DNA of 64,000 nucleotides, from contig CALWQP010000002.1 in the NCBI GenBank assembly GCA_944383695.1, positions 62,001 through 126,000 of the forward strand, in the 5' to 3' direction. The position numbers and the translations under genes are program-made. This document shows, piece by piece, positions 10,116 through 54,918 of the stretch (positions are counted from its first letter, which is position 1; every line of letters starts with the position of its first letter). This DNA comes from an uncultured Mediterraneibacter sp. GTDB lineage: Bacteria > Bacillota > Clostridia > Lachnospirales > Lachnospiraceae. The notes beneath the pieces were generated by a model that had not been told where the DNA came from, searched no databases, and saw only the letters and a program-made list of their open reading frames with translations.

Positions 10116-12185
10116 TCACTCCGGCGCTTCGCCCGAGGCCCAGTCATCCAGGTCCGGGCTGTAGTTTTCATCTATATATGAGCCGTCCGGGTTATTATAA
10201 GTGTCTTCATAATTTTCATCGTAGTCTGTGTACTCTGTATCTCCGAAATTCTGTCCCTCTGTCTGGACACTCTCTCCGCTTTCGGCAATAGTCGTGATTC
10301 CGAGATACGGGAACGCCTCTTCCATGATCTTCTTGCTTAAGCCCAGGACAAGAGAACTGTCTCCTGCCGAATCGTTCCGAGCCTCATCGATCACAACATA
10401 GATCAGCACTTCCGGATTCTCCTGGGGCGCGTAACCGATATAGGAAAGCAGGTATTTATTGTTTCCTCGGGGCAGCTTCTCCGCAGTCCCTGTCTTAGCG
10501 CCGATATCGTATCCTTCCACCTGAGCCCGCTGACCTGTCCCATAGTCCATCGTTGCCTTCATATAAGTTTTCAGCATCTTTGACGTCTCTGAGGACACTG
10601 TTTTCCGAAGAAGCACCGGGTCTTTTGTCTCAATGACATTGCCGTTCTCATCCTGGATCTGTTTCACAACGTGGGGTTCATAATAATACCCTCCATTAAT
10701 AAGAGAAGCGAAAGCAGACGCCATCTGCGTCATAGTCACATTGAAGTTCTGTCCGAACGAGTTGCTGGCAAGGTCTACCTCTGTCATACTGTCTGCCGTG
10801 TACAAAAGACCTGCCGTGTATGCTTCTCCCGGAAGATCGATGCCGGTGTATTCACCGAAACCAAAGATGTGCTGGTATCTGGTAAAGTTTTCTACTCCGA
10901 TAACAGACGCCATATCCATCAGCGCTACGTTACATGAATTGGCTATCGCATCCTGGATCGACTCTGTTCCATGGCCTGCCCGGTAATGGCATCCGATTTC
11001 CCAGCCCATGACATTCTTGGAACCGCCGCAGTAATAGGTCTCATCTCCGGTAAGTGTCCCGGTCTCAAGTCCTGCCGCCACAGTAAATGGCTTTGCCACG
11101 GAACCGGGCTCATAGGCGTCGCTGACACAGAAATTGCGCCAGAGGTCATTCAATGTCGCCGCTTCTTTCTCATCGTCCGACATTTCATTCCATTCCTGCT
11201 CCTTTCCCTGCTGGCTGTAGATTGCAGCCACCTCCTGCATCTTCTCTGTCCACGCCTCATCTGAATAAATCTGAGATCGGTTTCTCGGCTCATTCAGGTC
11301 AAAGTTGGGATAAGACGCTTCTGCCAGGATCTCTCCTGTATTCGGATTCATGATAATGACCGCAGTATTCTTGCTTCCAAGTTCGCCGTCACCCGCGCGT
11401 TCCTGGTTAAACTCCAGGATCGCTTTCTCCACGATGCTCTGGAGAGTTACATCAATGGTGGATACAACCGTATTTCCATTCTTTGCCGGTTTGACTGTCC
11501 TCTCCACAGAGGACTCACTGTCAAAATATCCGTACTCCCTGCCGTCTGTTCCGTTCAGCACGTCATTGTACGCATTTTCAATGCCAATGGCCCCCTGGTT
11601 TCCTGCATAGGTAAAACCGATCACATCGCTGGCCATACTGCCGTAGGGATAAGTCCTCGTATAGTCGTCCTCCAGCCAGATTCCCATCACATTAGGATAA
11701 TTCTCATCATCCGCATCGATCTCATTGAATTTCTGCGCTGTCTCATAATCAATCCCCCGGGCGAGAATCTCATAACGGCTGTCCGGATCCTCCTCCACCA
11801 GCCCATCCACAACGCTTCCTTCAATTCCAAAGCATTCTTTGAGGACTTCTTTGGTTGGTTCAATGTATTCGTCCTTATCCGTCATCATATTCACATCCAG
11901 GATGACATTGTACACACGCTCGCTGGAGGCGATCTTTGTGCCGTTGCGATCCACGATATCCCCACGCTTAAAAGCGATCACACGGCTGTCATAATTCTGC
12001 TGGTCCAGGACAGTCCTGGTATATCCGCTTCCTTTTGTTACATTGATATATGTGATCCTCCCTATAAGAACAACAAAAGCCAGTACCACTGCCATAAATA
12101 GCATTACCAGCTTCCGTTGCATCCTGAGCGGGAATTTTTTCGTTAAAAATTCAAATCTGCTCTTCTTTCTTTTTCTTCCTGCCAT
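10116..12185 (-). CDS. ftsI: Class B penicillin-binding protein (FtsI type)
   Basis: 689 residues. Basic N-terminus, membrane anchor at about residues 27-48, N-terminal dimerisation domain with RGDIVDRNG, and transpeptidase domain with SVAK (Ser 362), SCN (417) and KTG (564). The C-terminal 60 residues are an acidic tyrosine-rich tail (for example YTDYDENYEDTYNNPDG) that is not part of the catalytic fold and is unusual for the family. FtsI-type enzymes cross-link septal peptidoglycan together with FtsW. It lies directly after ftsL (12 bp), so the two are co-translated in one operon from the mraZ promoter. Confidence 0.92.
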   Translation of the reverse strand: MAGRKRKKSRFEFLTKKFPLRMQRKLVMLFMAVVLAFVVLIGRITYINVTKGSGYTRTVLDQQNYDSRVIAFKRGDIVDRNGTKIASSERVYNVILDVNMMTDKDEYIEPTKEVLKECFGIEGSVVDGLVEEDPDSRYEILARGIDYETAQKFNEIDADDENYPNVMGIWLEDDYTRTYPYGSMASDVIGFTYAGNQGAIGIENAYNDVLNGTDGREYGYFDSESSVERTVKPAKNGNTVVSTIDVTLQSIVEKAILEFNQERAGDGELGSKNTAVIIMNPNTGEILAEASYPNFDLNEPRNRSQIYSDEAWTEKMQEVAAIYSQQGKEQEWNEMSDDEKEAATLNDLWRNFCVSDAYEPGSVAKPFTVAAGLETGTLTGDETYYCGGSKNVMGWEIGCHYRAGHGTESIQDAIANSCNVALMDMASVIGVENFTRYQHIFGFGEYTGIDLPGEAYTAGLLYTADSMTEVDLASNSFGQNFNVTMTQMASAFASLINGGYYYEPHVVKQIQDENGNVIETKDPVLLRKTVSSETSKMLKTYMKATMDYGTGQRAQVEGYDIGAKTGTAEKLPRGNNKYLLSYIGYAPQENPEVLIYVVIDEARNDSAGDSSLVLGLSKKIMEEAFPYLGITTIAESGESVQTEGQNFGDTEYTDYDENYEDTYNNPDGSYIDENYSPDLDDWASGEAPE

Positions 12186-17396: not shown

Positions 17397-19277
17397 CTAT
17401 CTTGTATTCACAGCCGGATGCACTGGCTTCCCATGTTCAAAGAACCTGTCATACCACACGAGGAAGATATACACCGCCCATATCTTGCGGCTGTCGTCCG
17501 TCTTCTCGTTCGTATTCTTTCCCTCCCTGTGGTCATCCAGCATTTTCATGAGCATGTCTGTGTTGAAGAACTTCTTTGCCGCACTTGTCGCAAACATTGC
17601 CCTGACTCTGTTATAATATTTCTCCTCCCTCAGCCATACCCGGATCGGGATCGGAAAGCCCAGTTTCTTTTTCTCTGCCGTCTTACTCCGTATGTTCCTC
17701 TCTGCTGCCGCACGGAGCGCGACCTTTGTCCTTGGAGGCCTCACCTTATAGTCAAGAGGCAGGGTCTCCGCCAGCTCCAGCACCTTCTTGTCAAGGAACG
17801 GCACTCTTACTTCCAGAGAATTGGCCATGCCCATCTTATCCCCCTTCATAAGGATATCATGGACCAGCCAGAGATGCATGTCAACATACTGCATCTTCGT
17901 GACAGGGTCTTTATCCTTAACTCTCTCATATAATGGGCGGGTCACATCCTGGATGCCCGGTCTGCAGCCTTTCTTTAAAATCTTATTTGCTTCCCGCTCT
18001 GTAAAGATATTTGTCGCGTTAGCATAATACCGTTCCTCCAGCGTCTTGCCGTGACGCATGAGGAATCCTCTCCCCTTCATTCCCCGGGGCAGACAGTATT
18101 CTGCAAATCTTCCGAGGAAACGGCGTATCGGAAATGGGATTTTGTTGAAAGCCGTATGCTCCAGAGGCTCACAGTAAATATTGTATCCGCCGAAAAGCTC
18201 GTCCGACCCTTCTCCCGAGAGCACCACCTTCACCTTTTTCGCAGCTTCTTCACTCAGGAAATACAACGCGATCGCAGCCGGATCTGCCACAGGCTCATCC
18301 ATATAATACTGGATATCTGAGAGCTTATCCCAGTATTCATCCGGCGTAATGACTTTGGCGTCGTTCTGCATATTGATGCTTGCCGCAAACTCCTTCGCAT
18401 CCTGGATCTCGCTGTACTGTCCTTCGTCAAAGCCCACCGTGAACGTGCGGTCCACCTGCCCGAGCCAGGTCAGATAGCTGGAATCCACGCCGCTGGAGAG
18501 ATATGACGCCACTTCCACATCGCTGATCTTATGCTTTTCCACGGACTCTTTCATGACCGCTTCCACATCATCGACAACCTCATCAAAAGATTTGGTACAG
18601 GCTCCGGTGAAATTGGGTTCAAAGTACCGTGTGATCTCCATTTTCCCATTTTCATATATGAAATAATGTCCCGGCTGAAGGCAGAACACTCCCTTGAAAA
18701 AAGTCTCATTCGTCGGAACAAACTGGAATGACAGGTAATTGCCAAGGGCATCCTCATTAAAAATCTTGTCAAACTTCGGGTGCTCCATGAACGCTTTGAT
18801 CTCTGATGCGAACATGAGCGTCCCATTCATCTGGGCATAATAGAGCGGCTTGATACCGAAAATATCCCTGGCCCCAAAAAGTTTCTTGTTCTTTGTGTCC
18901 CATATCACAAACGCATACATCCCGCGGAGCCTGTCAACAAGGCTCTCGCCCCACTCTTCAAATCCGTGCACCAGCGTCTCAGAGTCCGTGTTAGACACAA
19001 ATTTGTGTCCTGCTGCCACCAGTTCTTCCCGGAGCTCCTGATAATTATAAATCTCCCCATTGAACACCAGGACCATGCTCCTGTCCTCATTGTAAAGCGG
19101 CTGATCTCCCACAGAAGAAAGGTCGATGATGCTCAGACGCCTGAAGCCGAGCGCCGCATCCTCATCCACATACTTTCCTTCACTGTCCGGTCCCCGGTGG
19201 ATGATCGTGTTCATCATATTCACCAATACCTGTTCTCTGTCTTCCACTTCGCCGACAAAACCTGCGAATCCACACAT
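17397..19277 (-). CDS. asnB: Asparagine synthase (glutamine-hydrolysing)
   Basis: 626 residues. The N-terminal class II glutaminase domain begins MCGFAGFVG, with Cys2 as the nucleophile, and has RGPDSEGKYV and NGEIYNYQELR. The C-terminal ATP-pyrophosphatase domain has the PP-loop SSGVDSSYL, then LSGEGSDELFGGYNIY, GDKMGMANSLEVRVPFLD (landmarks KMGMA and EVRVPFLD). It converts aspartate and glutamine to asparagine; such enzymes also sometimes amidate cell-wall or peptide substrates. Length is typical of AsnB. Ribosome binding site AAAAGGAGAAAATGCT. It ends 69 bp before the SEDS gene start. Confidence 0.95.
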   Translation of the reverse strand: MCGFAGFVGEVEDREQVLVNMMNTIIHRGPDSEGKYVDEDAALGFRRLSIIDLSSVGDQPLYNEDRSMVLVFNGEIYNYQELREELVAAGHKFVSNTDSETLVHGFEEWGESLVDRLRGMYAFVIWDTKNKKLFGARDIFGIKPLYYAQMNGTLMFASEIKAFMEHPKFDKIFNEDALGNYLSFQFVPTNETFFKGVFCLQPGHYFIYENGKMEITRYFEPNFTGACTKSFDEVVDDVEAVMKESVEKHKISDVEVASYLSSGVDSSYLTWLGQVDRTFTVGFDEGQYSEIQDAKEFAASINMQNDAKVITPDEYWDKLSDIQYYMDEPVADPAAIALYFLSEEAAKKVKVVLSGEGSDELFGGYNIYCEPLEHTAFNKIPFPIRRFLGRFAEYCLPRGMKGRGFLMRHGKTLEERYYANATNIFTEREANKILKKGCRPGIQDVTRPLYERVKDKDPVTKMQYVDMHLWLVHDILMKGDKMGMANSLEVRVPFLDKKVLELAETLPLDYKVRPPRTKVALRAAAERNIRSKTAEKKKLGFPIPIRVWLREEKYYNRVRAMFATSAAKKFFNTDMLMKMLDDHREGKNTNEKTDDSRKIWAVYIFLVWYDRFFEHGKPVHPAVNTR

Positions 19278-19728
19278 AGCATTTTCTCCTTTTCACTCCC
19301 GCCCGGCTCTGTACTCCTAATAATAGATAAGGAACCAGTTTCGGTAAGACTTTTTACCTGATCTGATCCCTTATTGCCGTGCTTTGTGTCTCATAAAAAA
19401 TTATAGTTTCTGTACGAATCGGGGTGACAGGATTCGAACCTATTCCTAGCTTCTATGATGATTGCTTTCACGTCAGTCCGTACTGACCAGAAAAACGTCA
19501 TCTTTTAATGAATGATTCTTTTCTTTTATCACGTCGCCATTCAGTCGCCGTGATTTTTTCTGATCATTCTCCTATTATCCTGACTTAATACGAGGGAATC
19601 TCTGTCTCGTATCCCACCCCTTCCAACTGGTAGTATTATAGTCTACCACTCAGTAAAATGCAAGTTCTTTTTTCTCGCCCCCCTTTCCTCAGAAGCCTGC
19701 ATTTCACTCTTTCTGTCCTCTGTTGCAT
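19278..19728. other. Gene-free stretch: asnB leader, attL and left end of the element
   Basis: 19278-19417 holds the asnB leader; TTACCG and TATTAT spaced 16 bp upstream of asnB are a weak promoter candidate. From 19442 the element begins. Near 19540-19560 are two GTCGCC motifs in an inverted setting (TCACG...CGTGA), which recur at the right end of the element. No gene is seen. Confidence 0.6.
19418..19441. repeat. attL, 24-bp att core
   Basis: Identical to 27836-27859, covering the T-arm and acceptor 3' part of tRNA-Pro (core contains GGGGTGACAGGATTCGAA). Only the tRNA 3' fragment is present here, so it is the displaced copy created by integration. Confidence 0.9.
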
Positions 19729-20925
19729 TTAGCCGTTTACTACGCTTTTAGCCTTCTCGAACTCCTCATTCAATCTGCCTGCATCCGCCTTCACTTTTGA
19801 CTGAATTGAATGCTGATACCTGCGTGAACTCTTGATACTGCTGTGTCCGCCCATGCTAATCATGGAAAGGTCGCTGAATCCTTCAATGCTAGAACACAAC
19901 GAAAAATAGGTATGTCTGAGATCGTGAAGTCTGTAGCATGGCAGGTCTGGACAGCTCTTCTGCATGAATGTCTTGAACGTTTTGTATATCCTGTTTGGCT
20001 TCATAGGCGTATACGTATCATGCTGTAAAATCAGAACGTGATTATCCCCCTGGAAGTCTGGTGCTTTTGCCTGTAGTCTGAAATATCTCTTACGTGCTCT
20101 CACGAGAATTTTGTAGAGCGTTCCATTTACTACTAAGGGAACTTTTCTTGTTCCGGCTTCTGTCTTTGTTCCTTTTTCAATCACCCCTTCCTTTGTCGAA
20201 ACCTCTGCCCGTTGTATCATTATGTATGGATTTTCTTCATCAAGTGAAATATCCTCCCATCTCAAGCCCGCAAGTTCTGAACGCCTAAGTCCGCCTCCGA
20301 GGCAGGTCAGTCCTACGATCAATTCAACGTTAATGTTCTTTTCCGCTCTAGCTCGTGCTAGCATTGTCTTGACCTGGTCCATTGTATACGTATGCCCCAT
20401 TGCCTCAGCTTTTCTAGGCAATCTGATGTATGTGGTAGGAAGTATGCCCGTTAGTTGTAAATAGTTATCGCTGATTGCCTGCTTCAATACCACTGACACA
20501 AAGGAAACGTGATTCCGAATAGTCTTAGGAGCTTTACCTGTTGCTATGTAATGGTTCACCATGTCCTGTACGGTCTCTGTCGTTATCTCACTCAGGAAAA
20601 GTTCTCCCAAATGACGCCTGATTCCATCCTCTGCCAAATACATCTGTTCATAGTTCTGTCGTGTGGTTGGAGAAAGAAATCCCATGTACTTCTCTCTGTA
20701 GACCTTTTCGTAGTATTCACGAAAAAGCATTTTCTCTTTGTCAAGGTAGTTTCCGTACTCAATGTTTAAACTCATCTGACAGCAGATTCTGTCTGCCTCA
20801 GCTTTTTTTGTTCCTGCCGGAAGCATTTTGTAACTTCTCCGGCGCACTCCGTCACGAGTCCAGTCTCGGACGATCCTGTATCTAATCCCGGACGGACGCT
20901 TCACCTTTTCAACGTATAGCTTCAT
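19729..20925 (-). CDS. int: Tyrosine recombinase (integrase)
   Basis: 398 residues from the ATG at 20925, which has AAGGTGATACAG in front; a GTG three codons upstream is less likely. N-terminal AP2-like arm-binding domain, a core-binding SAM-like domain (about 65-165), and the catalytic domain. Catalytic set visible: Arg in GGLRRSELAGLRW (about 215), HDLRHTYFS (about 335-343), GGHSSIKSS (His about 361) and the nucleophile Tyr in SRRYQHS (about 370). It should catalyse site-specific integration at the tRNA-Pro 3' end, since its gene abuts attL. It is last in a run of minus-strand genes, directly after the excisionase-like gene. Confidence 0.95.
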   Translation of the reverse strand: MKLYVEKVKRPSGIRYRIVRDWTRDGVRRRSYKMLPAGTKKAEADRICCQMSLNIEYGNYLDKEKMLFREYYEKVYREKYMGFLSPTTRQNYEQMYLAEDGIRRHLGELFLSEITTETVQDMVNHYIATGKAPKTIRNHVSFVSVVLKQAISDNYLQLTGILPTTYIRLPRKAEAMGHTYTMDQVKTMLARARAEKNINVELIVGLTCLGGGLRRSELAGLRWEDISLDEENPYIMIQRAEVSTKEGVIEKGTKTEAGTRKVPLVVNGTLYKILVRARKRYFRLQAKAPDFQGDNHVLILQHDTYTPMKPNRIYKTFKTFMQKSCPDLPCYRLHDLRHTYFSLCSSIEGFSDLSMISMGGHSSIKSSRRYQHSIQSKVKADAGRLNEEFEKAKSVVNG

Positions 20926-20943
20926 CTGTATCACCTTCTTAGT

Positions 20944-21156
20944 TTAGTATGGATTAATCTCGTACTCTACTTTTTCCTCGGAGAGCAAAAGGCTATTCAC
21001 CTCTGCTCTTGAATAGTAATAAGTGTTTCCGATTTTCTTATAGTTGCAGCGGCTATTTAGGAAGGCTCTCAGCTTTCTGCAATCCATATTTAGGTATTCT
21101 CGCTGAATATCCTGAACGCTTAAAAGCTTACGTGCTGTTTTCTTTTTATTGGTCAT
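20944..21156 (-). CDS. Excisionase-like small DNA-binding protein
   Basis: 70 residues. MTNKKKTARKLLSVQDIQREY is followed by a helix-turn-helix/winged pattern (CRKLRAFLNSR...KKIGNTYYYSRAEVNSLL), typical of Xis/MerR-like excisionases that read a target and then a basic wing. It overlaps the upstream gene by ATGA and precedes the integrase by 18 bp, the usual xis-int arrangement. It probably controls excision directionality. Confidence 0.75.
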   Translation of the reverse strand: MTNKKKTARKLLSVQDIQREYLNMDCRKLRAFLNSRCNYKKIGNTYYYSRAEVNSLLLSEEKVEYEINPY

Positions 21157-21503
21157 TGTTTTTCATCCTCCTCAAAAATATAATATATCTCTTCAAGCTG
21201 TTGCTTTGTGATTTTGATGAACCCCGTTCTCTTAACCAGTCTATTGCCCGTACCGCATTTTTGACAGCATTTTCCAATTTTGGGGTTTCTGCAAATAAGC
21301 CTCCCCGCTTTTCTCAATTCAGCCGGAGTAATGCTTCCGATTACCAGATAGCTTTTGGGATAAACCAGAATTTCTACCCGCTTATCAACCACCTCCTCAT
21401 ATGCTTCTCTAATCTCATCCTCAAAAAGTTTCAAATTCATTTCCTGTTTGTAGATTTCGTCTAGCAGTTCATATTTTCTGATGCAAATTATTTTTTTCTT
21501 CAT
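21153..21503 (-). CDS. Unknown protein with a cysteine-rich zinc-ribbon-like segment
   Basis: 116 residues, ATG with AGAAGGAGGTCAAC in front. Helical N-terminus (residues 1-45), then YPKSYLVIGSITPAELRKAGR and CRNPKIGKCCQKCG, a cluster of four cysteines that could bind zinc, and an acidic C-terminus ending in EEDEKQ. The family is not recognised. It is translationally coupled to the excisionase-like gene by a 4-base overlap, so it may take part in control of excision or replication. Its leader is long and rich in hairpins. Confidence 0.65.
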   Translation of the reverse strand: MKKKIICIRKYELLDEIYKQEMNLKLFEDEIREAYEEVVDKRVEILVYPKSYLVIGSITPAELRKAGRLICRNPKIGKCCQKCGTGNRLVKRTGFIKITKQQLEEIYYIFEEDEKQ

Positions 21504-21564
21504 GTTGACCTCCTTCTATGCAAAGGCTACCTTTTCTGTGTCATTCCTGCTCTTCTCCCCTGTA

Positions 21565-21732
21565 GTCCCCTCAAGGGGACAGCATCCGCTCGCCTCCTAC
21601 CGTCGGCTCTCGTCTGTTTTATGCAGGCATTGAATCAGGATGCCACTTTTGTCTTCTGCATTCTAATTGATTAAATTTTTAGTCATCTTTTATTACGAGG
21701 GGGATGACGTTTAAATTTCCTCTTCATCCCCC
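21565..21732 (-). promoter_or_regulatory. Structured leader region upstream of the 21153-21503 gene
   Basis: Contains the perfect hairpin GTCCCCTCAAGGGGAC (21565-21580), GCATCC/GGATGC pairing across about 60 bases (21581-21646), and GGGGGATGA / TCATCCCCC (21699-21707 and 21724-21732). No T-run follows, so these are not simple terminators. It may be an RNA leader, an origin or a transfer site. Confidence 0.45.
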
Positions 21733-21960
21733 TATCGCAAAACCGCCTGAATACCGCCAGTCGTTGAATTCTTTTTCCTCTTGATGATTTCTTTCACGTC
21801 GATTCCGTCGATATCGTTGAAAGAATTTTTTTCTTCAATTTTCCCATTTTTCTTTTTTTCAGAAAAAGTTTCCTCTACTTTATCGCCAGTATCGTCGATT
21901 GCGACTTGACGCCCTTATTTTCTTGTGGTTATGTCTGACGGTTTTCTGTCAATTTTTTGA
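21720..21960. repeat. Element repeat, copy 1 (about 240 bp)
   Basis: Aligns over its length with 25648-25889: a well-conserved core at one end (TATCGCAAAACCGCCTGA, then ACCGCCAGTCGTTGAAT), an AT-rich middle, and a conserved block TGACTTGACGCC... at the other end. This copy overlaps the last codons of the ATPase gene. A minus-strand frame (21732-21914, 60 codons) is open but has no ATG. Confidence 0.75.
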
Positions 21961-23406
21961 TTTTCTCTGCTTCGGTGTCTTCCATATGTGTATCTGCCGA
22001 AACGCGCCAATGTTCTTTATTTCGAAGAAAATCCCTACTGTCTCGAGGTTGGATTTCAACTCATTCAACCGGCGAGATAGCACGTTCGGCTGACCCGGAA
22101 GCAATGAACATTTTATTGCGTTTTTCTCTGCTATGTCACAGAGATCGCCTAGCAGCTGTGTCACCGAGCCTAAATACTCCTTCCTTGAACTCATCAGTTC
22201 CTGCAGGCATTGTGCCACAAGATTTTCTCCAAGAGTTTGCCGATTCACCTCTTTCTGATTTTCCCAGATTATGTTCGCCGTTTCCTCGTCCTTGAGTCCG
22301 AAGATGCGTCCAATCTTTACGGCTACTTCAAACCAGTCCGCCATGCGAGTCCTTTTCTGTAAGGTTACCGGCTCATCATCAGCTAAGACTTCTGAGATGC
22401 AAAGGAAAACCGCACCAAGAATTTTGGGCAAGTCACTTTCAAAGGATTCCTTGAGCTCTCTTTCCGTCTTAATTTCTGATTGCGGAATACGACTCAAATT
22501 AAAAACAATTGAGCGATCCAGAAGATCAGCCTCTCTTGCAACTAACCCGATTCCATTCAAAGAAATGACGCACTGAAGATTCAATGTTATTTCTTCTGTA
22601 TTGCTGTAAAGCCGACGCCTGCTGGACGATCCCCCCGTAATTGCTCTGGCAAGCAGATCGCTTGTCTGTTTAGATATATACGAAAGATTATCCAAAGAGA
22701 TAAAGTAATTATTATGGAGGCGTATTTCTAAGTCTGCGTTGTTTCTAGGTGCACCCATCACGTCCGTGCTTTTCGGGTCTACGATACGTTCGATTCTTCG
22801 CAAAATGCTTGATTTACTACTGCCTTTCTCCCCCTGCAGCACCAGAATCGGCACATTGATTAACGGACTGAAAAATGCAGTTACCAAATAAATGCTGAAA
22901 AGAATATTATCTGCATCTGACTGAAACCTGAAATTTTTTTTGACTAACTCAATTAGATCCCCTGCGCCTGTTTCTCTGTCAGGCTCAACCTGCGGTGCAT
23001 AGGTTGAGTTTTGTAAAAAAACCTTCGAAGGAGTTTTGATGTCTTCATATCCTCTCTCATTTATTATGTACGCCACTCCTCGTGTCGCATCCAGATCATA
23101 ACACAGCCCTCTTGTCGGGCAAAATGCTACCCTGTTCGCCAGATTTCTTTGGAGCGGATGCTTAAACGCATAATGCTCCAATCTCAAGATTGTTTCCTGG
23201 ATGTCTCCAACTGAAAACCACTCTCCGCTCCACTGCTTCATAAGGTCTCTCAGAATCATCAGGAAATCATTGTCTCGTGGGCTATAGACTTTTAACTTCT
23301 CACCATCTTTTACCTCGACCCAGTAGTTTCTGCCTGGAGTAGAAAACGGGCTCAAAATTTTTTTCCTAATGAGCTCTTCTATTACTTCTGCCTGCTTTTT
23401 TGCCAT
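21949..23406 (-). CDS. P-loop replication-type ATPase/helicase of the element
   Basis: 485 residues, ATG with AAAGGAGGTCATAAATATT in front. N-terminal part (1-150) includes CPTRGLCYDLDATRG, seen in plasmid/phage primase-helicase-like ATPases. The Walker A LQGEKGSSKSS is at about 190-200, followed by an acidic NNYFISLDNLS (about 232-242) as the likely Walker B, and then ITGGSSSRRRLYSN (sensor/arginine region). The C-terminal 100 residues look like a winged helix. It probably unwinds or loads replication machinery at an element origin. No primase catalytic motif was recognised. The 23456-23512 dyad lies in its leader. Confidence 0.75.
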   Translation of the reverse strand: MAKKQAEVIEELIRKKILSPFSTPGRNYWVEVKDGEKLKVYSPRDNDFLMILRDLMKQWSGEWFSVGDIQETILRLEHYAFKHPLQRNLANRVAFCPTRGLCYDLDATRGVAYIINERGYEDIKTPSKVFLQNSTYAPQVEPDRETGAGDLIELVKKNFRFQSDADNILFSIYLVTAFFSPLINVPILVLQGEKGSSKSSILRRIERIVDPKSTDVMGAPRNNADLEIRLHNNYFISLDNLSYISKQTSDLLARAITGGSSSRRRLYSNTEEITLNLQCVISLNGIGLVAREADLLDRSIVFNLSRIPQSEIKTERELKESFESDLPKILGAVFLCISEVLADDEPVTLQKRTRMADWFEVAVKIGRIFGLKDEETANIIWENQKEVNRQTLGENLVAQCLQELMSSRKEYLGSVTQLLGDLCDIAEKNAIKCSLLPGQPNVLSRRLNELKSNLETVGIFFEIKNIGAFRQIHIWKTPKQRKSKN

Positions 23407-23447
23407 AATATTTATGACCTCCTTTAACGAAAATCATTTCAGCTAAT

Positions 23448-23512
23448 AAAAAAAACACTTTGCCTGTTGTTTAGATTGACTGAGTTAATCAATTAAATCA
23501 ACAGGCAAAGTG
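23448..23512 (-). terminator. Long dyad with T-run in the ATPase gene leader
   Basis: A perfect 14-bp inverted repeat CACTTTGCCTGTTG (23456-23469) / CAACAGGCAAAGTG (23499-23512); the 29 bases between are themselves nearly palindromic. On the minus strand it is followed by TTTTTTTT. It ends about 40 bases before the ATPase start, so it would terminate readthrough from upstream unless countered: a candidate attenuator or operator. Confidence 0.75.
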
Positions 23513-23764
23513 CCACAAGTGCTACTTTACTCTTTTCATCATTACATCAAAATTGTATACATTATAAGTATTGCATCAATTTATCATCGATTTATTATAA
23601 AAATATCATGTATCAATTTTAACGTTTATTATTAATATTATATAAATATTAACTGAAATAACTTCCGATATTAAATTTTAATACCCTTTCAGGTACTACT
23701 CTACATTATCAAAGAAAGTAACATCTGTCAACCATTTTCTGAATTTTTCCTCATCTGCATTCTA
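23513..23764. other. AT-rich gene-free stretch of the element
   Basis: About 250 bp, strongly AT-rich, with no open frame of note, no clear promoter pair and no repeat that I could see. Such DNA could serve as an unwinding region, but nothing specific supports that. Confidence 0.4.
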
Positions 23765-23884
23765 TTAACGCCTCTTTCGTGTAGCTCTCTTTTCTCCCCT
23801 TGCTATCGCATAAAACATAGCAACTATGTATATTGACTCCAAAAATACTTTGAATAAAAACTCATTACTATTTTCCTTTTTCAT
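23765..23884 (-). CDS. Predicted 39-residue small protein of the element
   Basis: ATG at 23884 preceded by GGAGAGGAGAAGATTTTCAG; stop TAA at 23765. The sequence MKKENSNEFLFKVFLE is followed by SIYIVAMFYAIARG and a basic end KRATRKRR. One hydrophobic stretch suggests a membrane or amphipathic peptide. It overlaps the preceding small frame by 17 bases. Function unknown; the call rests on the ribosome binding site and tight spacing. Confidence 0.45.
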   Translation of the reverse strand: MKKENSNEFLFKVFLESIYIVAMFYAIARGEKRATRKRR

Positions 23885-23972
23885 CTGAAAATCTTCTCCT
23901 CTCCAAAAATTCCATTGCCACTACCAGTATCATGGCAACCCCTATTCCTGCAAAAAATAATAGATACTCCAC
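23868..23972 (-). CDS. Predicted 34-residue membrane peptide of the element
   Basis: GTG start at 23972; GGAGAGGAGGCG at the end of the upstream gene acts as ribosome binding site. VEYLLFFAGIGVAMILVVAME forms a single transmembrane helix, followed by the basic FLERRRF. It lies between the 23977 gene and the next small frame in one tight minus-strand run. Small membrane peptides of this kind in mobile elements can be toxins, holins or regulators, but nothing identifies the function here. Confidence 0.45.
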   Translation of the reverse strand: MEYLLFFAGIGVAMILVVAMEFLERRRFSDEKGK

Positions 23973-23976
23973 TCTA

Positions 23977-24336
23977 CTACGCCTCCTCTCCTTGTGGTGA
24001 GATGATTGTTATCCCATAATCATTCGTAATTATGTATAACCTGACCTCCCATGTCTTTTCCTTTGAAGTTCCAATGCTCTCTCTGTATTCAGCTTCATCA
24101 CTGCGTACGTGATATTTTTCAAGGACTTCCCTCAAATCATTTTCCCTCACTGGTTCTGTGCAAAAGAGAATGAATCCTCCATCATCTTTCTGTGCCTCCC
24201 TCAAATCACCATACACATTATCCAAAATCCCCAGTATGCGCTCTGTCTCTTTTCGGACTGCATCAGGCGCACCGCATTGATCGCACAGGACGTTTACCTC
24301 ATCCATCTGTCTTTTTGTCCAAAAAACTCTTTTCAC
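23977..24336 (-). CDS. Hypothetical protein of the element (119 aa)
   Basis: GTG start at 24336 with AGGAGGCATGAACA in front. The sequence KRVFWTKRQMDEVNVLCDQCGAPDA is followed by a helical part and a beta-rich C-terminus (EVRLYIITNDYGITIISPQ). The CDQCG pair of cysteines could bind metal but is alone. Soluble, no signal. Not recognised. It is 17 bp downstream of the 24354 gene and is followed by two small overlapping frames. Confidence 0.65.
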   Translation of the reverse strand: MKRVFWTKRQMDEVNVLCDQCGAPDAVRKETERILGILDNVYGDLREAQKDDGGFILFCTEPVRENDLREVLEKYHVRSDEAEYRESIGTSKEKTWEVRLYIITNDYGITIISPQGEEA

Positions 24337-24353
24337 TGTTCATGCCTCCTGCT

Positions 24354-24935
24354 CTATAGAATTATGAATTCGTCATTCAAAGCGTCTATGATTAGTTCTC
24401 TTCCATCAAACCGTGACTCATCAAGTTCTCCTACGTACCTGATGTCTATGCATTTTACTTCTCGCTCTGTCAAAGCCAAAATTTCAGGCTTTATCTGTTC
24501 TTCAAGATATCTCTGTCTGCTTTCTCTGTCCTTATAGCAGTATGACTCATATCGTTCAAAATTCCAGATACCTGTCTGGATTATGGCATCACCCATTCTT
24601 TCAAGCAGAGCAAGGTCAGCATTCTCACCGAGATCAATCAAAAGGTATACGTCCTGTTCGTTATGTCTCCTGATCTCGCCCTCGTCCGTTATGTAGTAGT
24701 CCAGTTGTTTTGCCGAATGCTTCCCTGTCTGCTGTGACTCGTACTCCTGCACGATCTCCTTCCACTCTCCCGGATGCAGGAACTGAAATGTTAGTAGCTC
24801 ACGTATCCAGTCCGCTTTACTCTGTGTGTATCCAGACGGTGGGCTATTGATATCATCCATGTCAAAGCATGGGTTTTCTTTATCCCATCTATCCTCACGC
24901 AAAAACCATTCTTCTATTGATGTGTACTCTGTCAT
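24354..24935 (-). CDS. Hypothetical acidic protein of the element (193 aa)
   Basis: ATG at 24935, chosen because GGAGGAAAGAAAAA precedes it and it overlaps the previous stop by ATGA; a longer frame to 25010 is embedded in the neighbouring gene. The sequence begins MTEYTSIEEWFLREDRWDKENP and has a strongly acidic, helical character with TGIWNFERYESYCYKDRES in the middle and a C-terminal beta segment ending NDEFIIL. It has the size and acidity of anti-restriction or DNA-mimic proteins, but no motif proves that. Unknown function. Confidence 0.6.
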   Translation of the reverse strand: MTEYTSIEEWFLREDRWDKENPCFDMDDINSPPSGYTQSKADWIRELLTFQFLHPGEWKEIVQEYESQQTGKHSAKQLDYYITDEGEIRRHNEQDVYLLIDLGENADLALLERMGDAIIQTGIWNFERYESYCYKDRESRQRYLEEQIKPEILALTEREVKCIDIRYVGELDESRFDGRELIIDALNDEFIIL

Positions 24936-25552
24936 TTTTTCTTTCCTCCTCGTTCTCTCTCTGCAAGGATTTTCAGTTCTTTCTTGGTGGGGAACGTTCC
25001 CAACTTCCATTTAGCATTGCTATGCCGGATGCCCATATATAGTGGATGCACCCCCGAAATTTCTTTCGGAAGTCCGTCAGCCACGATCTGTTTCAGGGCT
25101 ACTGCCGGATGCGTTTTCGTCCAAATTTCAAGAATACGCTTCTTCGCAGTATTTACTGCCTTTGAAGTCAAGTGTGAATTTCCCCATGCAATGATGACTT
25201 CCGTATCCTCAGTGTTCAACTGTTCGAAAATTTCTTTCTCCAGAAATTCCAGATTATCTGTGTCTACGAGAAGCCCTCTTGTGCTCAGTCTGGTCGCTGT
25301 GACTTTCGAAAAAAGGTTCACCACCGAGTAAGCCCTCAGCCCCAGTTCCCTCATGTGGTTCTGGATGTGTACGTTTGTAGAATCTTCCACGAAGAAGTTC
25401 TCCTGATTCCTTGTTGGATAGAGCATGATGAAGATTCCTTTTTTCCCTTCCATCCCGTTCAGTTCCTTTGTGTAGAGATATGTGTACTTTCCATCCTCTG
25501 AGGTTACTATTTTTGAAGTTGTCTGCATCTCTCTTTGTACTGTTTTTGCCAT
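24932..25552 (-). CDS. DUF1643-like protein
   Basis: 206 residues. The core KGIFIMLYPTRNQENFFVEDST followed by ELGLRAYSVVNLFSKVTATR and a later EVIIAWGNSH, then a C-terminal PLYMGIRHSN, matches the layout of DUF1643 (COG4333) proteins, in which a P-N/T-x motif, a VVNLF strand and an AWG strand recur. DUF1643 genes are common in phages and islands; their biochemical function is not established. The next gene overlaps its stop, so the two are coupled. Upstream is the dyad GGCAAACTGA/TCAGTTTGCC (25582-25610). Confidence 0.7.
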   Translation of the reverse strand: MAKTVQREMQTTSKIVTSEDGKYTYLYTKELNGMEGKKGIFIMLYPTRNQENFFVEDSTNVHIQNHMRELGLRAYSVVNLFSKVTATRLSTRGLLVDTDNLEFLEKEIFEQLNTEDTEVIIAWGNSHLTSKAVNTAKKRILEIWTKTHPAVALKQIVADGLPKEISGVHPLYMGIRHSNAKWKLGTFPTKKELKILAERERGGKKK

Positions 25553-25581
25553 TGTATTTTCATCCTTTCATCCAAAATATA

Positions 25582-25610
25582 GGCAAACTGAATTTATTCA
25601 TCAGTTTGCC
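25582..25610. repeat. 10-bp perfect dyad upstream of the DUF1643-like gene
   Basis: GGCAAACTGA (25582-25591) and TCAGTTTGCC (25601-25610), loop 9 bases, about 30 bp before the start codon of the 24932-25552 gene. Possible operator or RNA hairpin. Confidence 0.6.
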
Positions 25611-25647
25611 CGTTCGTTCTTTATTGCAAGAGTGACTATTGTGTTTT

Positions 25648-25889
25648 CTCTTCATCTCCCTATCGCAAAACCGCCTGACTACCGCCAGTCGTTGAATGCT
25701 CTTTTTTCTTTGGTCTATCCGCTTTTGTCGGTTCTGTCGATATGATTGCTGAAACTTTTTTTCTTCAAATTTTCTTTTCTTCTTTAAGAAAAAATTTTCT
25801 CTGTTTTATCGTCAGTATCGCCAAGTGTGACTTGACGCCTTGATTGCCTTGCGGTTACGGCTGACGATACTGTTGTCGATTTTTCGGTT
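25648..25889. repeat. Element repeat, copy 2 (about 240 bp)
   Basis: Related to 21720-21960 in the same orientation. The most conserved parts are TATCGCAAAACCGCCTGA and ACCGCCAGTCGTTGAAT at the left and TGACTTGACGCC plus TGACGAT-like motifs at the right; the AT-rich centre has diverged. In-frame stops at homologous places indicate it is not protein coding in this copy. Confidence 0.75.
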
Positions 25890-25929
25890 TCTATGTTCCC
25901 TGCCTCTTTCGAACCTCATGGCTACCAAT

Positions 25930-26008
25930 TATTTCAGCTTTGCACTTTCCCGTAGAGATGAGCTGTCAGGCTCATCTCCCTTGTATACGGGAAAGCAAAT
26001 GCTGAAAT
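25930..26008. other. Three-tier long hairpin (candidate origin or structured RNA)
   Basis: Nested perfect stems: ATTTCAGC (25930-25937) with GCTGAAAT (26001-26008); CTTTCCCGTA (25945-25954) with TACGGGAAAG (25986-25995); GAGATGAGC (25955-25963) with GCTCATCTC (25970-25978), closing a 6-base loop. About 27 base pairs in total with small bulges. It has no T-run, so it is not a terminator. Structures of this kind occur as single-strand origins, oriT sites or non-coding RNAs. Confidence 0.7.
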
Positions 26009-26051
26009 CAGTGGTTGACGTGAGTGTGAGAAAGAGTATCTTTTTCCTCAC

Positions 26052-26088
26052 TAAAAAAGAGAACGTCTTTTCTTGTCTAAGCGTTCTC
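26052..26088 (-). terminator. Terminator of the 26077-26742 gene
   Basis: Minus strand: GAGAACG at the very end of the coding region pairs with CGTTCTC and is followed by TTTTTT (about 26053-26058). The stem includes the stop-codon region of the gene. Confidence 0.7.
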
Positions 26089-26742
26089 CTTTAATGAATC
26101 TAATGTACCTTTGCAGGCATCATATTTTAATATTGCTTTCCCCCTGATATCCTTTGAACCTGTCAAAAGCTTTTCATACGGATTCATCAATCGCTTTAAC
26201 GTCATCATGTTCTCAGGCAGGTCTTCGTATGCCAGAGCAAAATCATTATTGCAGACACCGATTATCAGCCCATCCATGCCAAACCGTCTGCAGGTCTGCT
26301 CCAAAACCTTTGTAGAAAATGCTCCTACTGCTGCCCGGATTCCGAGTGTACCTGTGATGCAGAACGGTTGATGTTCTTTATCCAGACTTTCCATTTTATC
26401 TGCCAATGCTCTAATCACCCTGTATCGGTCGGCGTTGATCGGGTCATGTTCCATCTCTTTGAAGTATTCTGCAAGAGGCTTTCCCCTTATCTCAAAAATG
26501 TTGACTGTATTATCAAGTGTCTTTTCAAATAGCTCTTCTCTGCTCCATCTACTTAAGTACGAATCAAAATCATCATTGTGGAAATGCAGGGGTTCTACTA
26601 TCCCCTGTTCTATCAGCATGAGGTCAAGCATATAGTAAACTATGTTGACGCCCCACTTCGTTTCCTGTCTGTATACATCAGCGTCCAGATTGGCGGTTTC
26701 CAATTCGATTGTAACCAAATCCAGTTCTTTCTCTGTCAGCAT
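26077..26742 (-). CDS. Hypothetical protein of the element (221 aa)
   Basis: ATG at 26742 with GGAGGACAGAAGA in front; a longer frame to 26784 lacks one. Mixed alpha/beta soluble protein with no signal peptide. The middle contains CITGTLGIRAAVGAFSTKVLEQ and the C-terminal half GLIIGVCNNDFALAYEDLPE, with a LMNPYEKLLTGSKD stretch. I do not recognise the family with confidence; it has the look of the DUF-type proteins found in Clostridia islands. It is followed by its own terminator and precedes the structured intergenic region. Confidence 0.6.
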   Translation of the reverse strand: MLTEKELDLVTIELETANLDADVYRQETKWGVNIVYYMLDLMLIEQGIVEPLHFHNDDFDSYLSRWSREELFEKTLDNTVNIFEIRGKPLAEYFKEMEHDPINADRYRVIRALADKMESLDKEHQPFCITGTLGIRAAVGAFSTKVLEQTCRRFGMDGLIIGVCNNDFALAYEDLPENMMTLKRLMNPYEKLLTGSKDIRGKAILKYDACKGTLDSLKENA

Positions 26743-26831
26743 TCTTCTGTCCTCCAATTTTTGAAAATTAAAAAGCCAACGCAATTTTACTGATGTAAGA
26801 TGCGTTGACTTTCTTTTTCTCTATTATTCCT

Positions 26832-27257
26832 TTATGGTTCTAAAATTGTATCATATTTTAAATCTATCGCAGGTTCTGGTTCATCTCCTCCTGAAACTCT
26901 AAGTAATTCTATCCGTTCTTTAGCTTTATTATCTTTTATCTTATAATACTTAAAATTTTTCCCAGCTCCAGCTTTTCCCACTAAGTAATAAATAGCGCCC
27001 ACTACTATTACCGGAATACCAGCGAGTCCTGCTCCAGCCGCTCCCACTGCCAGCACACCAAACCCGCCAAGCCCCATCATTGCTTTTCCTGCTACTCGTC
27101 CAAACCTACCTTTATTCTTGTCTCTTTTTATTTCTTCCTTTGTTTCTTTATATGCATCTTTAACTATATATATTGCTAATTCTTTCCTATTGATAGCCCG
27201 AGCTGCATCATTATATGACGTAGCTACATATGGTTTTATATTTCTACGTTCTCTCAT
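26832..27257 (-). CDS. Hypothetical membrane protein of the element (141 aa)
   Basis: Basic N-terminal 60 residues, then a glycine-rich double hydrophobic segment (about 62-95, GKAMMGLGGFGVLAVGAAGAG and IPVIVVGAIYYLVGKAGAG), then a soluble basic tail ending in acidic residues. The ribosome binding site is TTAGGAGGATACT. A Gly-rich hydrophobic hairpin flanked by basic sequence can indicate a membrane-inserting effector, but no family is recognised. It is divergent from the XRE regulator at 27415, and the shared intergenic region has operator-like dyads. Confidence 0.55.
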   Translation of the reverse strand: MRERRNIKPYVATSYNDAARAINRKELAIYIVKDAYKETKEEIKRDKNKGRFGRVAGKAMMGLGGFGVLAVGAAGAGLAGIPVIVVGAIYYLVGKAGAGKNFKYYKIKDNKAKERIELLRVSGGDEPEPAIDLKYDTILEP

Positions 27258-27326
27258 AGTATCCTCCTAAATGAAATTAATCCTTTGAGTATTATTTTCT
27301 CGTAATTATACCAATATTTTATTCAA

Positions 27327-27387
27327 ATTGCAATCTATGACTTTGCAATAGCAATATTATAGATAGTTTATGCAGTCAATAATATTA
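27327..27387. promoter_or_regulatory. Divergent operator region with dyads
   Basis: ATTGCAA (27327-27333) and TTGCAAT (27343-27349) form one inverted repeat; AATATTAT and ATAATATT at about 27353-27387 form a second. They lie between the membrane-protein gene and the XRE regulator, a likely place for repressor binding. Assignment is inference. Confidence 0.45.
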
Positions 27388-27414
27388 CTTATCATTTTTA
27401 TATGGAGGTAGTTT

Positions 27415-27654
27415 ATGGCTGAGAAATACAAACATCAAGAAAAATATACTCGTCTGGGATTAAATATAGCGTATCGTCGAAAATTAAAGGGAATGACTCA
27501 ACTGGATCTTGCTGAAGCTGTGAACATCAGTCGGACGCATATAAGTAATATTGAAGCTCCCAATGTTCCCACTTCTGTTTCTCTTGAGACTCTCTTTGAT
27601 ATTGCTGATGCTTTAGACGTTTCGGTTGACGTGCTTTTTCGATTCAATGACTAA
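27415..27654 (+). CDS. XRE-family transcriptional regulator
   Basis: 79 residues, ATG after TATGGAGGTAGTTT. A single Cro/C1-type helix-turn-helix: LGLNIAYRRKLKGMTQLDLAEA, then INISRTHISNIE and FDIADALDVSVDVLFRF. It is almost the whole HTH_3 domain with no effector part. As the only plus-strand gene of the element and divergent from its other genes, it is probably the lysogeny-type repressor that keeps the element silent. Confidence 0.88.
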   Translation: MAEKYKHQEKYTRLGLNIAYRRKLKGMTQLDLAEAVNISRTHISNIEAPNVPTSVSLETLFDIADALDVSVDVLFRFND

Positions 27655-27659
27655 TGAAT

Positions 27660-27836
27660 GGCTGATTTACCCGTCGCCCCACCCTTTTGTCGCCGTGGAG
27701 ACGCCACTTATACGGCGACGGTCGCCATTGGATTTATTCATATGTACTTACTTGTATTAAGGGTTCTTTTTCAGAAACCCTTGCTAGTAAAGTTAAAGGG
27801 CTAGACTTCCTTGTGTTGAAGTCTAGCCCTATTATA
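27660..27836. other. Right end of the element with GTCGCC motifs
   Basis: GTCGCC or its inverse GGCGAC occurs four times between about 27677 and 27735, plus related ACGCC. The same motif occurs twice near the left end (about 19545-19560). They are candidate arm-type sites for integrase or excisionase. No gene. Confidence 0.45.
27797..27830 (-). terminator. Terminator behind tRNA-Pro
   Basis: A 13-bp perfect stem AGGGCTAGACTTC (27797-27809) / GAAGTCTAGCCCT (27818-27830), loop 8 bases, followed on the minus strand by TTTAACTTT. It lies inside the element, so after integration the element supplies the tRNA with a terminator. Confidence 0.75.
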
Positions 27837-27859
27837 TCGGGGTGACAGGATTCGAACCT
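27836..27859. repeat. attR, 24-bp att core within tRNA-Pro
   Basis: Identical to 19418-19441. It covers the 3' part of the intact tRNA-Pro gene, so integration keeps the tRNA functional. Confidence 0.9.
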
Positions 27860-27911
27860 GCGACCTCACGGCCCCCAGCCGTGCGCTCTAACCAAACTGA
27901 GCCACACCCCG
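27837..27911 (-). tRNA. tRNA-Pro (anticodon GGG)
   Basis: 75 nt on the minus strand. A seven-pair acceptor stem CGGGGTG/CACCCCG with discriminator A, a D-arm GCTC...GAGC, an anticodon stem CACGG/CCGTG around loop CTGGGGG giving anticodon GGG, and a T-arm with GGTTCGAATCC. CCA is not encoded. It decodes CCC and CCU. It is the integration site of the adjacent element. Confidence 0.95.
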
Positions 27912-27968
27912 CTGACTCATACATTATATATAATTTGCAGACAAATGTAAAGGAGTTTTTTTGCCCTG

Positions 27969-27996
27969 CACATCTGCGGGCAGACACCATAATATA
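27969..27996 (+). promoter_or_regulatory. Sporulation-type (sigma-K/E-like) promoter candidate for cotJABC
   Basis: CATAATATA (27988-27996) matches the sigma-K -10 pattern CATAnnnTA; CACA at 27969-27972 lies 15 bases upstream in the -35 position. It is about 40 bp before cotJA. Sigma-E and sigma-K -10 boxes are alike, so the factor is undecided. Confidence 0.35.
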
Positions 27997-28033
27997 ATAT
28001 TGAGTTACCATCTTATGAAAGGAGCTGCCTCCA

Positions 28034-28291
28034 ATGGCAAATTGTCAGAATAATATGCGCTATATGCGCCGCCCCATGACTTCCTCTCCGTCGTCTTCAT
28101 CCGGCATGCAGCGGATGGACGGATGCCCGGATACACGAGACTTCTTCTCGTCTGACATTCCCCTTGCAATGGCCTATGTCAAACGGCAGGAATGGCAGGA
28201 TATCTACGAACCGTGCAAAGCTCTGGAAAGGGGAACACTGTACAGGGAACTGGATAAACCGTTCACAGGGAAAGGAGGACGGAAAAAGTGA
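28034..28291 (+). CDS. cotJA: Spore coat protein CotJA
   Basis: 85 residues, ATG after ATGAAAGGAGCTGCCTCCA. N-terminus Ser/Met-rich; the core IPLAMAYVKRQEWQDIYEPCKALERGTLYRELDKPF (landmarks AMAYVKRQ and GTLYREL) is the CotJA signature. CotJA associates with CotJC in the spore coat. First gene of cotJABC; cotJB starts at the overlapping GTGA. Confidence 0.92.
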   Translation: MANCQNNMRYMRRPMTSSPSSSSGMQRMDGCPDTRDFFSSDIPLAMAYVKRQEWQDIYEPCKALERGTLYRELDKPFTGKGGRKK

Positions 28292-50965: not shown

Positions 50966-50992
50966 TTTCTTATTATAACATTAAGCAATTAT

Positions 50993-51035
50993 GGAAATAG
51001 AACCATATAATGCACTGATTCATGGTTCTATTTCC
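50993..51035. repeat. 14-bp inverted repeat behind the autolysin gene
   Basis: GGAAATAGAACCAT (50993-51006) and its exact inverse ATGGTTCTATTTCC (51022-51035). No T-run follows in either direction, so it is a terminator-like or mRNA-stabilising hairpin between the autolysin stop and the yfhO-like start. Confidence 0.65.
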
Positions 51036-51055
51036 AGCAATTTAAACTATGTATT

Positions 51056-54169: not shown

Positions 54170-54215
54170 ATCTTAATCTTTCTCCTATTGTTTCTCTCTG
54201 CTCTTCCTGTTTTTC

Positions 54216-54809: not shown

Positions 54810-54858
54810 ACTGATCACCCCTTGTACTTAATATAATTTTTCATACTCCAACATATTA

Positions 54859-54887
54859 ATAATACCAATTAATGGAGTGGTTTTCAA
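54859..54887 (-). promoter_or_regulatory. Sigma-A promoter of the GerMN/autolysin genes
   Basis: Minus strand: TTGAAA (54882-54887), 17-bp spacer, TATTAT (54859-54864), about 50 bp before the GerMN start. Confidence 0.75.
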
Positions 54888-54918
54888 TGGGAAAATTTAG
54901 AGATTCCGCAGGCGCAGA

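Follow-up and report, generated by a model that had tools for sequence, protein, structure and literature searches.

Staphylococcal cassette chromosome (SCC) elements insert into rlmH by means of Ccr serine recombinases. Here, we describe an 8.4-kb element inserted at tRNA-Pro in a 64,000-nucleotide stretch of contig CALWQP010000002.1 (the whole stretch is called the window) from an uncultured Mediterraneibacter sp. of the Lachnospiraceae, and compare it with SCC elements and other islands. According to the accessible part of one study (eLife 2020, PMC7581432), both patterns of SCC element contain small open reading frames (ORFs) of the families DUF950, DUF960, and DUF1643, and a replicative helicase belongs to their conserved set. 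DUF1643 ORFs are found in two SCC elements in the available text of PMC3983117 and PMC10821479, in the latter after SaUGI and one other gene. As far as these sections go, a function is stated for DUF950 alone among the three small ORFs: it is SaUGI, a uracil-DNA glycosylase inhibitor. The available text of PMC5862659 describes cryptic integrated elements that encode primases and lack conjugation and phage genes; for the most part, the integrated elements studied occupy tRNA genes or intergenic regions. Bacillota islands, some of them from Clostridium and Clostridioides, combine A-family polymerase-SSB (single-stranded DNA-binding protein) primases, COG3378 or DUF927 helicases, and recombinases, again as described in the accessible part of the source (PMC10061031).

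We find that the Mediterraneibacter insertion is probably an intact, compact, plasmid-like integrative element, which would most likely excise, replicate with its own helicase, and reinsert. A core of DUF1643, a replicative-type helicase, and a protein family that we label P5 (the family of the element's protein P0005) recurs in other elements of Clostridia, where helicases and recombinases are exchanged. The element appears to work like the proposed replicative core of SCC, yet it is not an SCC. It has a tyrosine integrase and tRNA-Pro, not Ccr and rlmH, and its helicase is not recognized as Cch. As in the SCC elements of the available texts, DUF1643 stands beside a replicative-type helicase on a recombinase-mobilized island with no recognized transfer genes. 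The likeness extends to relatives, with DUF960 in five related loci and a Cch-type helicase in a second element of the same genome. Neither P5 nor a further protein, P0006, is named as an SCC gene in the accessible parts of the cited SCC papers.

The cryptic integrated elements of PMC5862659 share tRNA integration, a replication protein together with an integrase, and the lack of transfer genes, as far as the available text describes them. Relatives of the window helicase also resemble them in having primase-like N-terminal parts, whereas the window copy is the helicase part alone. Neither of the stems "Clostridi-" and "Lachno-" appears in the main text of that paper. The islands in the accessible part of PMC10061031 likewise pair a helicase with a site-specific recombinase and have checked empty sites, but no polymerase-SSB pair was recognized in the window element, and the main text does not mention DUF1643. 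The available parts of the cited papers describe neither the P5 and P0006 families nor the recurrence of P5 with DUF1643 as a pair in Clostridia. A literature search that covered few subscription journals found no paper on DUF5688, nor any on this element class in Lachnospiraceae.

The element is bounded by an exact 24-bp direct repeat, ATCGGGGTGACAGGATTCGAACCT, at 19418-19441 and 27836-27859. The copies are 8,418 bp apart; by arithmetic, ~1e-7 exact 24-mer repeats would be expected by chance in ~10 kb. The right copy lies almost entirely within tRNA-Pro(ggg). When the flanks are joined (19277-19417 plus 27836-28100), they align insert-free with empty sites in two loci of the same genus (L024 and L025), where the aligned sequence runs from asnB to tRNA-Pro. 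The locus has the duplicated attachment site (att) at a tRNA 3' end and the empty site in relatives that define a tRNA-targeted integrative element. GC content is mostly 0.47-0.56 in the flanks versus 0.30-0.46 within the element. A first-pass annotation of the sequence had proposed an 8.4-kb insert at tRNA-Pro bounded by a 24-bp att duplication, and had specified beforehand that the repeat should be polymorphic among relatives; the exact repeat and the empty sites bear this out.

We searched 58 genus genomes for the insertion site, and 30 gave loci, including the window's own. The 30 loci outside the window come from 29 of the other 57 genus genomes and from the record MT839049. In half of these (15/30), asnB lies ≤230 bp from tRNA-Pro, and in two the distance is 0.94-0.98 kb and a rubrerythrin-like gene (named by eye) intervenes. 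The remaining 13 have no asnB within the stretch examined (up to 1.5 kb), so no judgment is made on them; one (L047) shows no tRNA, and another (L049) stops at a contig edge. No integrase of the window type was found at tRNA-Pro in the examined stretches of the 31 site loci. MT839049.1, a fecal record labeled Bacteriophage sp., reads as a chromosome fragment with an unoccupied site; it carries asnB, tRNA-Pro, and cotJ-like genes (spore-coat names given by eye).

The features of the element are as follows, by window position.

19418..19441, no strand: attL copy, 24-bp core (exact direct repeat; empty site in L024 and L025)
19729..20934, minus: P0001, tyrosine integrase (PF00589, 8.9e-12; phrog_1, 2.1e-49), adjoining attL
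20944..21156, minus: P0002, small excisionase-like protein (no Pfam match; relatives beside integrases)
21153..21503, minus: P0003, ORF of 116 amino acids (no match in Pfam, PHROGs, NCBIfam, or PADLOC)
21705..21940, minus: non-coding repeat copy A, before the P0003, excisionase-like, and integrase genes (78-85% identity to copy B in matching blocks)
21949..23406, minus: P0004, stand-alone replication-type ATPase/helicase (weak VapE match; no primase domain seen)
23456..23512, minus: terminator-like hairpin and U run (inverted repeat I1), ~50 nucleotides before the P0004 start codon
23513..23764, no strand: AT-rich stretch (GC ~0.30), putative origin or leader
23765..23884, minus: possible 39-amino acid hydrophobic peptide (small-ORF scan with Shine-Dalgarno filter)
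23868..23972, minus: possible 34-amino acid hydrophobic peptide (small-ORF scan)
23977..24336, minus: P0005, 119 amino acids, P5 family (in 22 other loci; predicted local distance difference test [pLDDT] of the model, 90.4)
24354..25010, minus: P0006 (relatives in P5 loci; ATG at 24935 the likelier start, by eye)
24932..25552, minus: P0007, DUF1643 (PF07799, 1.2e-10, 42 bits, cut-off 22.5; model pLDDT 85.6)
25633..25866, minus: non-coding repeat copy B, before the DUF1643, P0006, and P0005 genes (likeness to copy A)
26077..26784, minus: P0008, divergent DUF5688-like protein (sub-threshold PF18941; ATG at 26742 the likelier start, by eye)
26832..27257, minus: P0009, 141 amino acids with a glycine-rich hydrophobic stretch (weak relatives in L072, 8.1e-6, and L070, 1.5e-5)
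27415..27654, plus: P0010, XRE-type repressor, divergent from P0009 (HTH_3, 4.5e-14)
27836..27859, no strand: attR copy, 24-bp core, tRNA-Pro 3' end (repeat and empty-site alignment)
27837..27911, minus: tRNA-Pro (ggg), the target, which stays intact (ARAGORN; Rfam E 6.6e-13)

Ten genes are open between the att copies; the XRE gene is on the plus strand, and the other nine are on the minus strand. The integrase, the replication-type ATPase, and the XRE repressor had all been named in the first-pass annotation, and family searches agree, although the VapE match of the ATPase is sub-threshold. P0001 has the motifs RRSEL, HDLRH, and GH and a C-terminal Y, with a likelier start at the ATG at 20922 (by eye). 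The excisionase call stands on position and on relatives; Pfam gave it no match. These relatives adjoin integrases in L022 (4.4e-17) and L019 (1.9e-14) and show a sub-threshold HTH_17 match, and the name "excisionase-like" reflects that position and small helix-turn-helix (HTH)-like relatives. In Pfam, no match was found for P0002, P0003, P0006, or P0009, and P0005 had one match at 0.1, below cut-off. PHROGs assigned DUF1643 to phrog_3230 (1.6e-11) and the XRE gene to regulator families; NCBIfam added nothing specific for the ten proteins.

The P5 family matches nothing consistently in Pfam: at E up to 10, no family was matched by more than 1 of the 12 members searched. A structure search with P0005 gave no PDB fold match worth naming. 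Outside the window, P5 occurs in 22 loci, of which 11 came from a concatenated query of five window proteins without assigned function (L020-L022 and L068-L075), two from helicase loci, where sequence or profile revealed it (L019 and L077), and nine from P5 itself (L126-L134). The concatenated query matched 11 of 397 family genomes, the window's own included.

By profile, 18 of the 22 P5 loci have DUF1643, in every case on the strand of P5; the distance to P5 is within 1 kb in 16 of them and ~2.4 kb in L022 and L130. All nine loci found by P5 alone, outside the DUF1643 profile, have DUF1643, although four of these (L130, L132, L133, and L134) share a near-identical DUF1643 start, belong to one family (f17), and look like a single lineage; L020/L021 and L068/L069 are close pairs too. 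The base rate of DUF1643 is low (11/246 genomes of the order; 0/14 control genomes). Conversely, the 246-genome search gave 15 DUF1643 loci (from 16 matches, two being halves of one place), and 7 have P5 within ~1.5 kb; two of these seven are in the window's own genome, and the match in another (L137) is partial and lies at a contig end. Thus, P5 is nearly always accompanied by DUF1643, whereas DUF1643 is accompanied by P5 in about half of cases.

The partners of the pair vary: there are four helicase arrangements, and the recombinase is of either the tyrosine or the serine type. A P0004-type or primase-fused helicase is found in 7/22 P5 loci (L019-L022, L074, L077, and L131; in L074, the N-terminal part alone is open), a D5_N plus DUF5906 helicase in three (L072, L127, and L129), and a Cch-type DUF927 helicase in one (L126). 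Tyrosine recombinases were detected in six loci (five by profile and that of L126 by Pfam). Six loci have serine recombinases recognized by N-terminal motif, with a further, split one in L020. DUF960 was confirmed by Pfam in five P5 loci (L072, L074, L129, L130, and L131), the five candidates having been picked by eye, and DUF5688-type proteins are present by profile in eight. P0005 itself matches the DUF960 protein of L129 weakly (E 0.001 in a small protein set), and we do not claim identity.

The first-pass annotation had read 23868-25552 and 26077-27257 as cargo with a possible accessory function, a reading that our results divide. P0005 and DUF1643 are not random cargo, because the pair recurs across many elements. 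In contrast, P0006, P0008, and P0009 could still be cargo. P0006 has relatives in two P5 loci (L126, 1.4e-23; L128, 3.6e-27). P0008 matches DUF5688 at 0.0039 (17.2 bits, below the cut-off of 34.5) and has a full-length relative in L022 (8.5e-38) that itself matches PF18941 at 4.2e-6, likewise below cut-off.

Three related elements illustrate the exchange of parts. The sister element L022 (genome G262) lies between copies of a 21-bp repeat, 11,090 bp apart, one copy being a tRNA-Ala 3' end. It encodes DUF1643, a small HTH-like protein, a P5-like protein, relatives of P0008 and P0005, a primase-helicase, an excisionase-like protein, and an integrase that matches P0001 with 464 bits; other ORFs lie between. 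Together with the polymorphic att, it agrees with the earlier proposal of a small plasmid-like integrative island of Clostridia. In L022, copies of TCAGTGGCGATAGGGACAG form inverted pairs at 6970-7092 and 10734-10840 (one partner degenerate, by eye); a small gene on the minus strand and the gene for the primase-helicase are flanked by them.

L020 has broadly the same gene order as the window element with a different recombinase: a serine recombinase (named by eye and split over two ORFs), a primase-helicase, a plus-strand ORF of 205 amino acids, P5, a 122-amino acid protein, DUF1643, a 93-amino acid protein, a hydrophobic 105-amino acid protein, and a divergent HTH-like gene. A second element resides in the window's own genome (L126 5650-15370; G000:C5 ~49650-59370). 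Its boundaries are the two copies of a 68-bp direct repeat, which lie 9,653 bp apart; part of the repeat resembles a tRNA T-arm, although ARAGORN found no complete tRNA there. Between the repeats lie P5, a P0006 relative, DUF1643, a Cch-type helicase, and a tyrosine integrase. The helicase has DUF927 (9.5e-17) and PF18662, "Cch helix turn helix" (5.3e-15), and its PDB matches are 5dgk, "Active helicase" (6.6e-35), which we take to be the Cch of SCCmec, and 8tch, "Pathogenicity island protein" (1.1e-11). The window element and L126 share P5, P0006, and DUF1643 in reversed order, and their helicases differ.

P0004 matches VapE in Pfam below threshold (9.5e-4; 19.1 bits versus a cut-off of 25) and a primase weakly in PHROGs (0.0026). 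Compared with the Cch/Cch2 type, it has the weak VapE match alone; the Cch type is that of L126. Matches to P0004 occur in 8 of 299 family genomes (own included) and in 28 plasmid records, at 24.5-31.9% identity in the best 20 of the 28, with Streptomyces, Stanieria, Methylobacterium, and Methanothrix among them. Two phage records matched, which represent one phage. A Genome_contigs scan with P0004 gave no match, and one with alignment A5 gave two contigs of one Lachnospiraceae metagenome-assembled genome. In a nine-sequence alignment, P0004 and three relatives (L016, L002, and L017) begin at or near the helicase part, whereas five of the eight aligned relatives (L018-L022) have a long extra primase-like N-terminal part with a DxD-like motif. 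Pfam matched this part to LigD Prim-Pol, with a score just short of the cut-off in L022 (5.6e-6) and a weak one in L021 (0.0027); that of L019 has a weak primase-small-subunit match (0.023). Past the helicase, L018 (4631-8689, the element of genome G096) encodes three additional large proteins that are likely true cargo; by eye, one is an ATPase, one is ParB-like, and one is Dam-like.

These data suggest how the element might operate. The XRE repressor P0010 would keep the minus-strand genes quiet, and the terminator-like hairpin before P0004 would keep the helicase low until read-through. The fold of 23407-23530 is more stable than all 200 shuffles (z -5.5), with a long stem at 23456-23512 followed by the U run. 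A scan detected no promoter-like site between this hairpin and P0004, so the helicase may need read-through. On induction, integrase and excisionase would excise a circle. P0004 would then open the AT-rich region, and the host primase and polymerase would copy the circle; P0004 itself lacks the primase-like part fused in several relatives. DUF1643 and P5 would form a helicase-independent accessory pair for replication. Copies would reinsert at tRNA-Pro, and transfer between cells would depend on machinery from elsewhere, whether by conjugation in trans, by transduction, or by transformation.

Several observations weigh against the reading of an active plasmid-like element with an SCC-like core. 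Replication, the origin, and the target of the repressor are inferred. None of the other 57 genus genomes searched has the whole element, and the empty sites are therefore the sole view of its own mobility; a query with the element DNA matched 3 of the 57 at all, one over 159 bp of the XRE gene (74%) and the other two over 37-38 bp. The attP junction of an excised circle, proposed earlier as a check, was not found in the 58 genus genomes with three mismatches allowed, nor as an exact pattern in viral_contigs, and the window does not contain it either. In Pfam, neither DUF960 nor DUF950 was matched at E up to 1 by any of the ten window proteins. The pair is also imperfect: in 4/22 P5 loci, the stretch examined lacks DUF1643 (L068 and L069, from the same genome with DUF5688 adjacent; L070; and L075, where the P5 match is at a contig end), and 8/15 DUF1643 loci have no P5 within ~1.5 kb. 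A helicase was not identified in 11/22 P5 loci, for which part of the proteins was scanned. The hairpin at 23456-23512 is not listed by a simple terminator scan, perhaps because of a bulge, and promoter-like sites are not enriched (18 versus 16.7 in shuffles). Finally, SaUGI/DUF950 was considered for P5, because P5 holds a similar place beside DUF1643; none of 12 P5 proteins matched that Pfam family. By sequence, P5 had no meaningful match among solved structures, and by structure, SaUGI was not among the matches listed, which excludes nothing.

The transfer step leaves room for other explanations, and no positive evidence was found for either of the two that follow. The element might be an island mobilizable in cis, which has no relaxase of its own and offers an origin of transfer (oriT) to the relaxase of a co-resident conjugative element. 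This is unlikely. In its favor, no relaxase family scored above cut-off in the ten window proteins (Pfam, PHROGs, and NCBIfam; P0003, P0006, P0008, and P0009 match no firm family), the only relaxase-side match being the HTH region of the XRE gene to MobT (0.0068; 15.2 bits, cut-off 600). The AT-rich region near 23.6 kb and copies A and B could hold an oriT, and a Rep_trans protein (7.6e-45) is encoded just outside the L126 repeat in the same genome. However, no oriT was recognized, with no search aimed at one, and copy A has no convincing homologue beyond its own genome among 146 genomes.

The first-pass annotation had raised a phage satellite. Such an element would be induced by a helper phage, replicate with its own helicase, and be packaged in helper capsids through a shared packaging site. 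We consider this quite improbable. The size, tRNA site, integrase, divergent XRE gene, and helicase do fit satellite layouts, and Staphylococcus aureus pathogenicity islands (SaPIs) and phage-inducible chromosomal islands (PICIs) resemble the element as small islands with an integrase, a divergent regulator, and an ATPase, here with a weak VapE match. In L126, the Cch-type helicase matches 8tch, and DUF1643 is found in phages too, both by phrog_3230 and by a fold match of its model to a protein of phage Phobos. In contrast to SaPIs and PICIs, the window integrase gene comes last among those on the minus strand, opposite the end that holds the regulator, and no packaging-redirect family was matched. 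Among the ten proteins, searches of Pfam, PHROGs, and NCBIfam matched no terminase, capsid, or packaging-interference/small terminase family, with the four proteins listed above lacking a firm family, and PHROGs matched no prophage structural or lysis family. The earlier statement that packaging and conjugation genes are not visible is thus upheld in these databases. The phage matches of the helicase come down to one phage, and the five concatenated proteins matched neither plasmids nor any of 50,697 phage records. Viral-contig relatives of P0004, P0007, and P0005 were absent from three scans, which reach close relatives only, and a viral_contigs scan with the Cch-type helicase of L126 gave no match.

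A defense island on an integrase vehicle, its genes of no assigned family being anti-phage systems, is very unlikely. The small membrane-like P0009 does adjoin the XRE gene, and tiny hydrophobic ORFs are present, but the PADLOC matches were confined to HTH-type ones of the XRE gene and a single one of the integrase at chance level (0.02), which does not sustain the anti-phage activity once suggested for the cargo. Moreover, DUF1643 and P5 recur as a pair with varied helicases and recombinases, not as swapped cargo. That the insertion is a decayed, immobile remnant is extremely unlikely: stops in six frames of copies A and B could mark decayed coding sequence, and the element is absent from other sampled genus genomes with no attP found, but the exact att copies, ten open genes, integrase motifs, and clean empty sites argue otherwise.

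Returning to the plasmid-like element, what its conserved pair does invites speculation. DUF1643 might have a uracil-DNA-glycosylase fold and, with P5, form a helicase-independent replication accessory unit common to SCC (for DUF1643) and to a large unnamed class of Clostridia elements; its role would resemble that of the poxvirus glycosylase D4 beside the D5 primase-helicase. Some members, the window's included, would have an altered catalytic position in the first glycosylase motif and would bind rather than cut. The proposal is tentative, and we think it doubtful.

Part of the island's "unknown cargo" becomes a defined question: why DUF1643 and P5 travel together, persisting across four helicase arrangements and two recombinase classes. 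Work on an element of a harmless bacterium, or on both proteins expressed in the laboratory, would make it possible to study what DUF1643 does with no pathogen involved. The element also adds to the evidence, in the accessible part of PMC10061031, that SCC-like replication gene sets occur outside staphylococci.

Copies A and B are ~235 bp each, diverged (~80% alike), and each precedes an operon. Their RNA folds are somewhat more stable than shuffles (z -3.0 for 21690-21948; z -2.6 for 25620-25900), and Rfam recognized the tRNA alone and no family for either copy. They could be the remains of a duplicated gene, because both have stops in all frames. With copy A as query, 46 of 146 genomes (own included) gave a match at E up to 0.01; besides copy B, the matches listed span ~20-50 bases, mostly in A-rich parts of the query. 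The best candidate homologue (G489) proved to be an unrelated coding region, and another (G460) an unrelated repeat.

At the right end of the element, a terminator-like hairpin (27797-27830) directly follows tRNA-Pro. By eye, it resembles the hairpin after tRNA-Pro in L030 and L032, but the empty sites L024 and L025 lack it; the element may supply tRNA-Pro with its own terminator. Between P0005 and the AT-rich region, the two tiny ORFs (34 and 39 amino acids) overlap within 23765-23972 and have Shine-Dalgarno-like sites. In L021, a long TGTC tetranucleotide run (4254-4422) lies near the start of an open 384-amino acid frame, which is possibly phase-variable.

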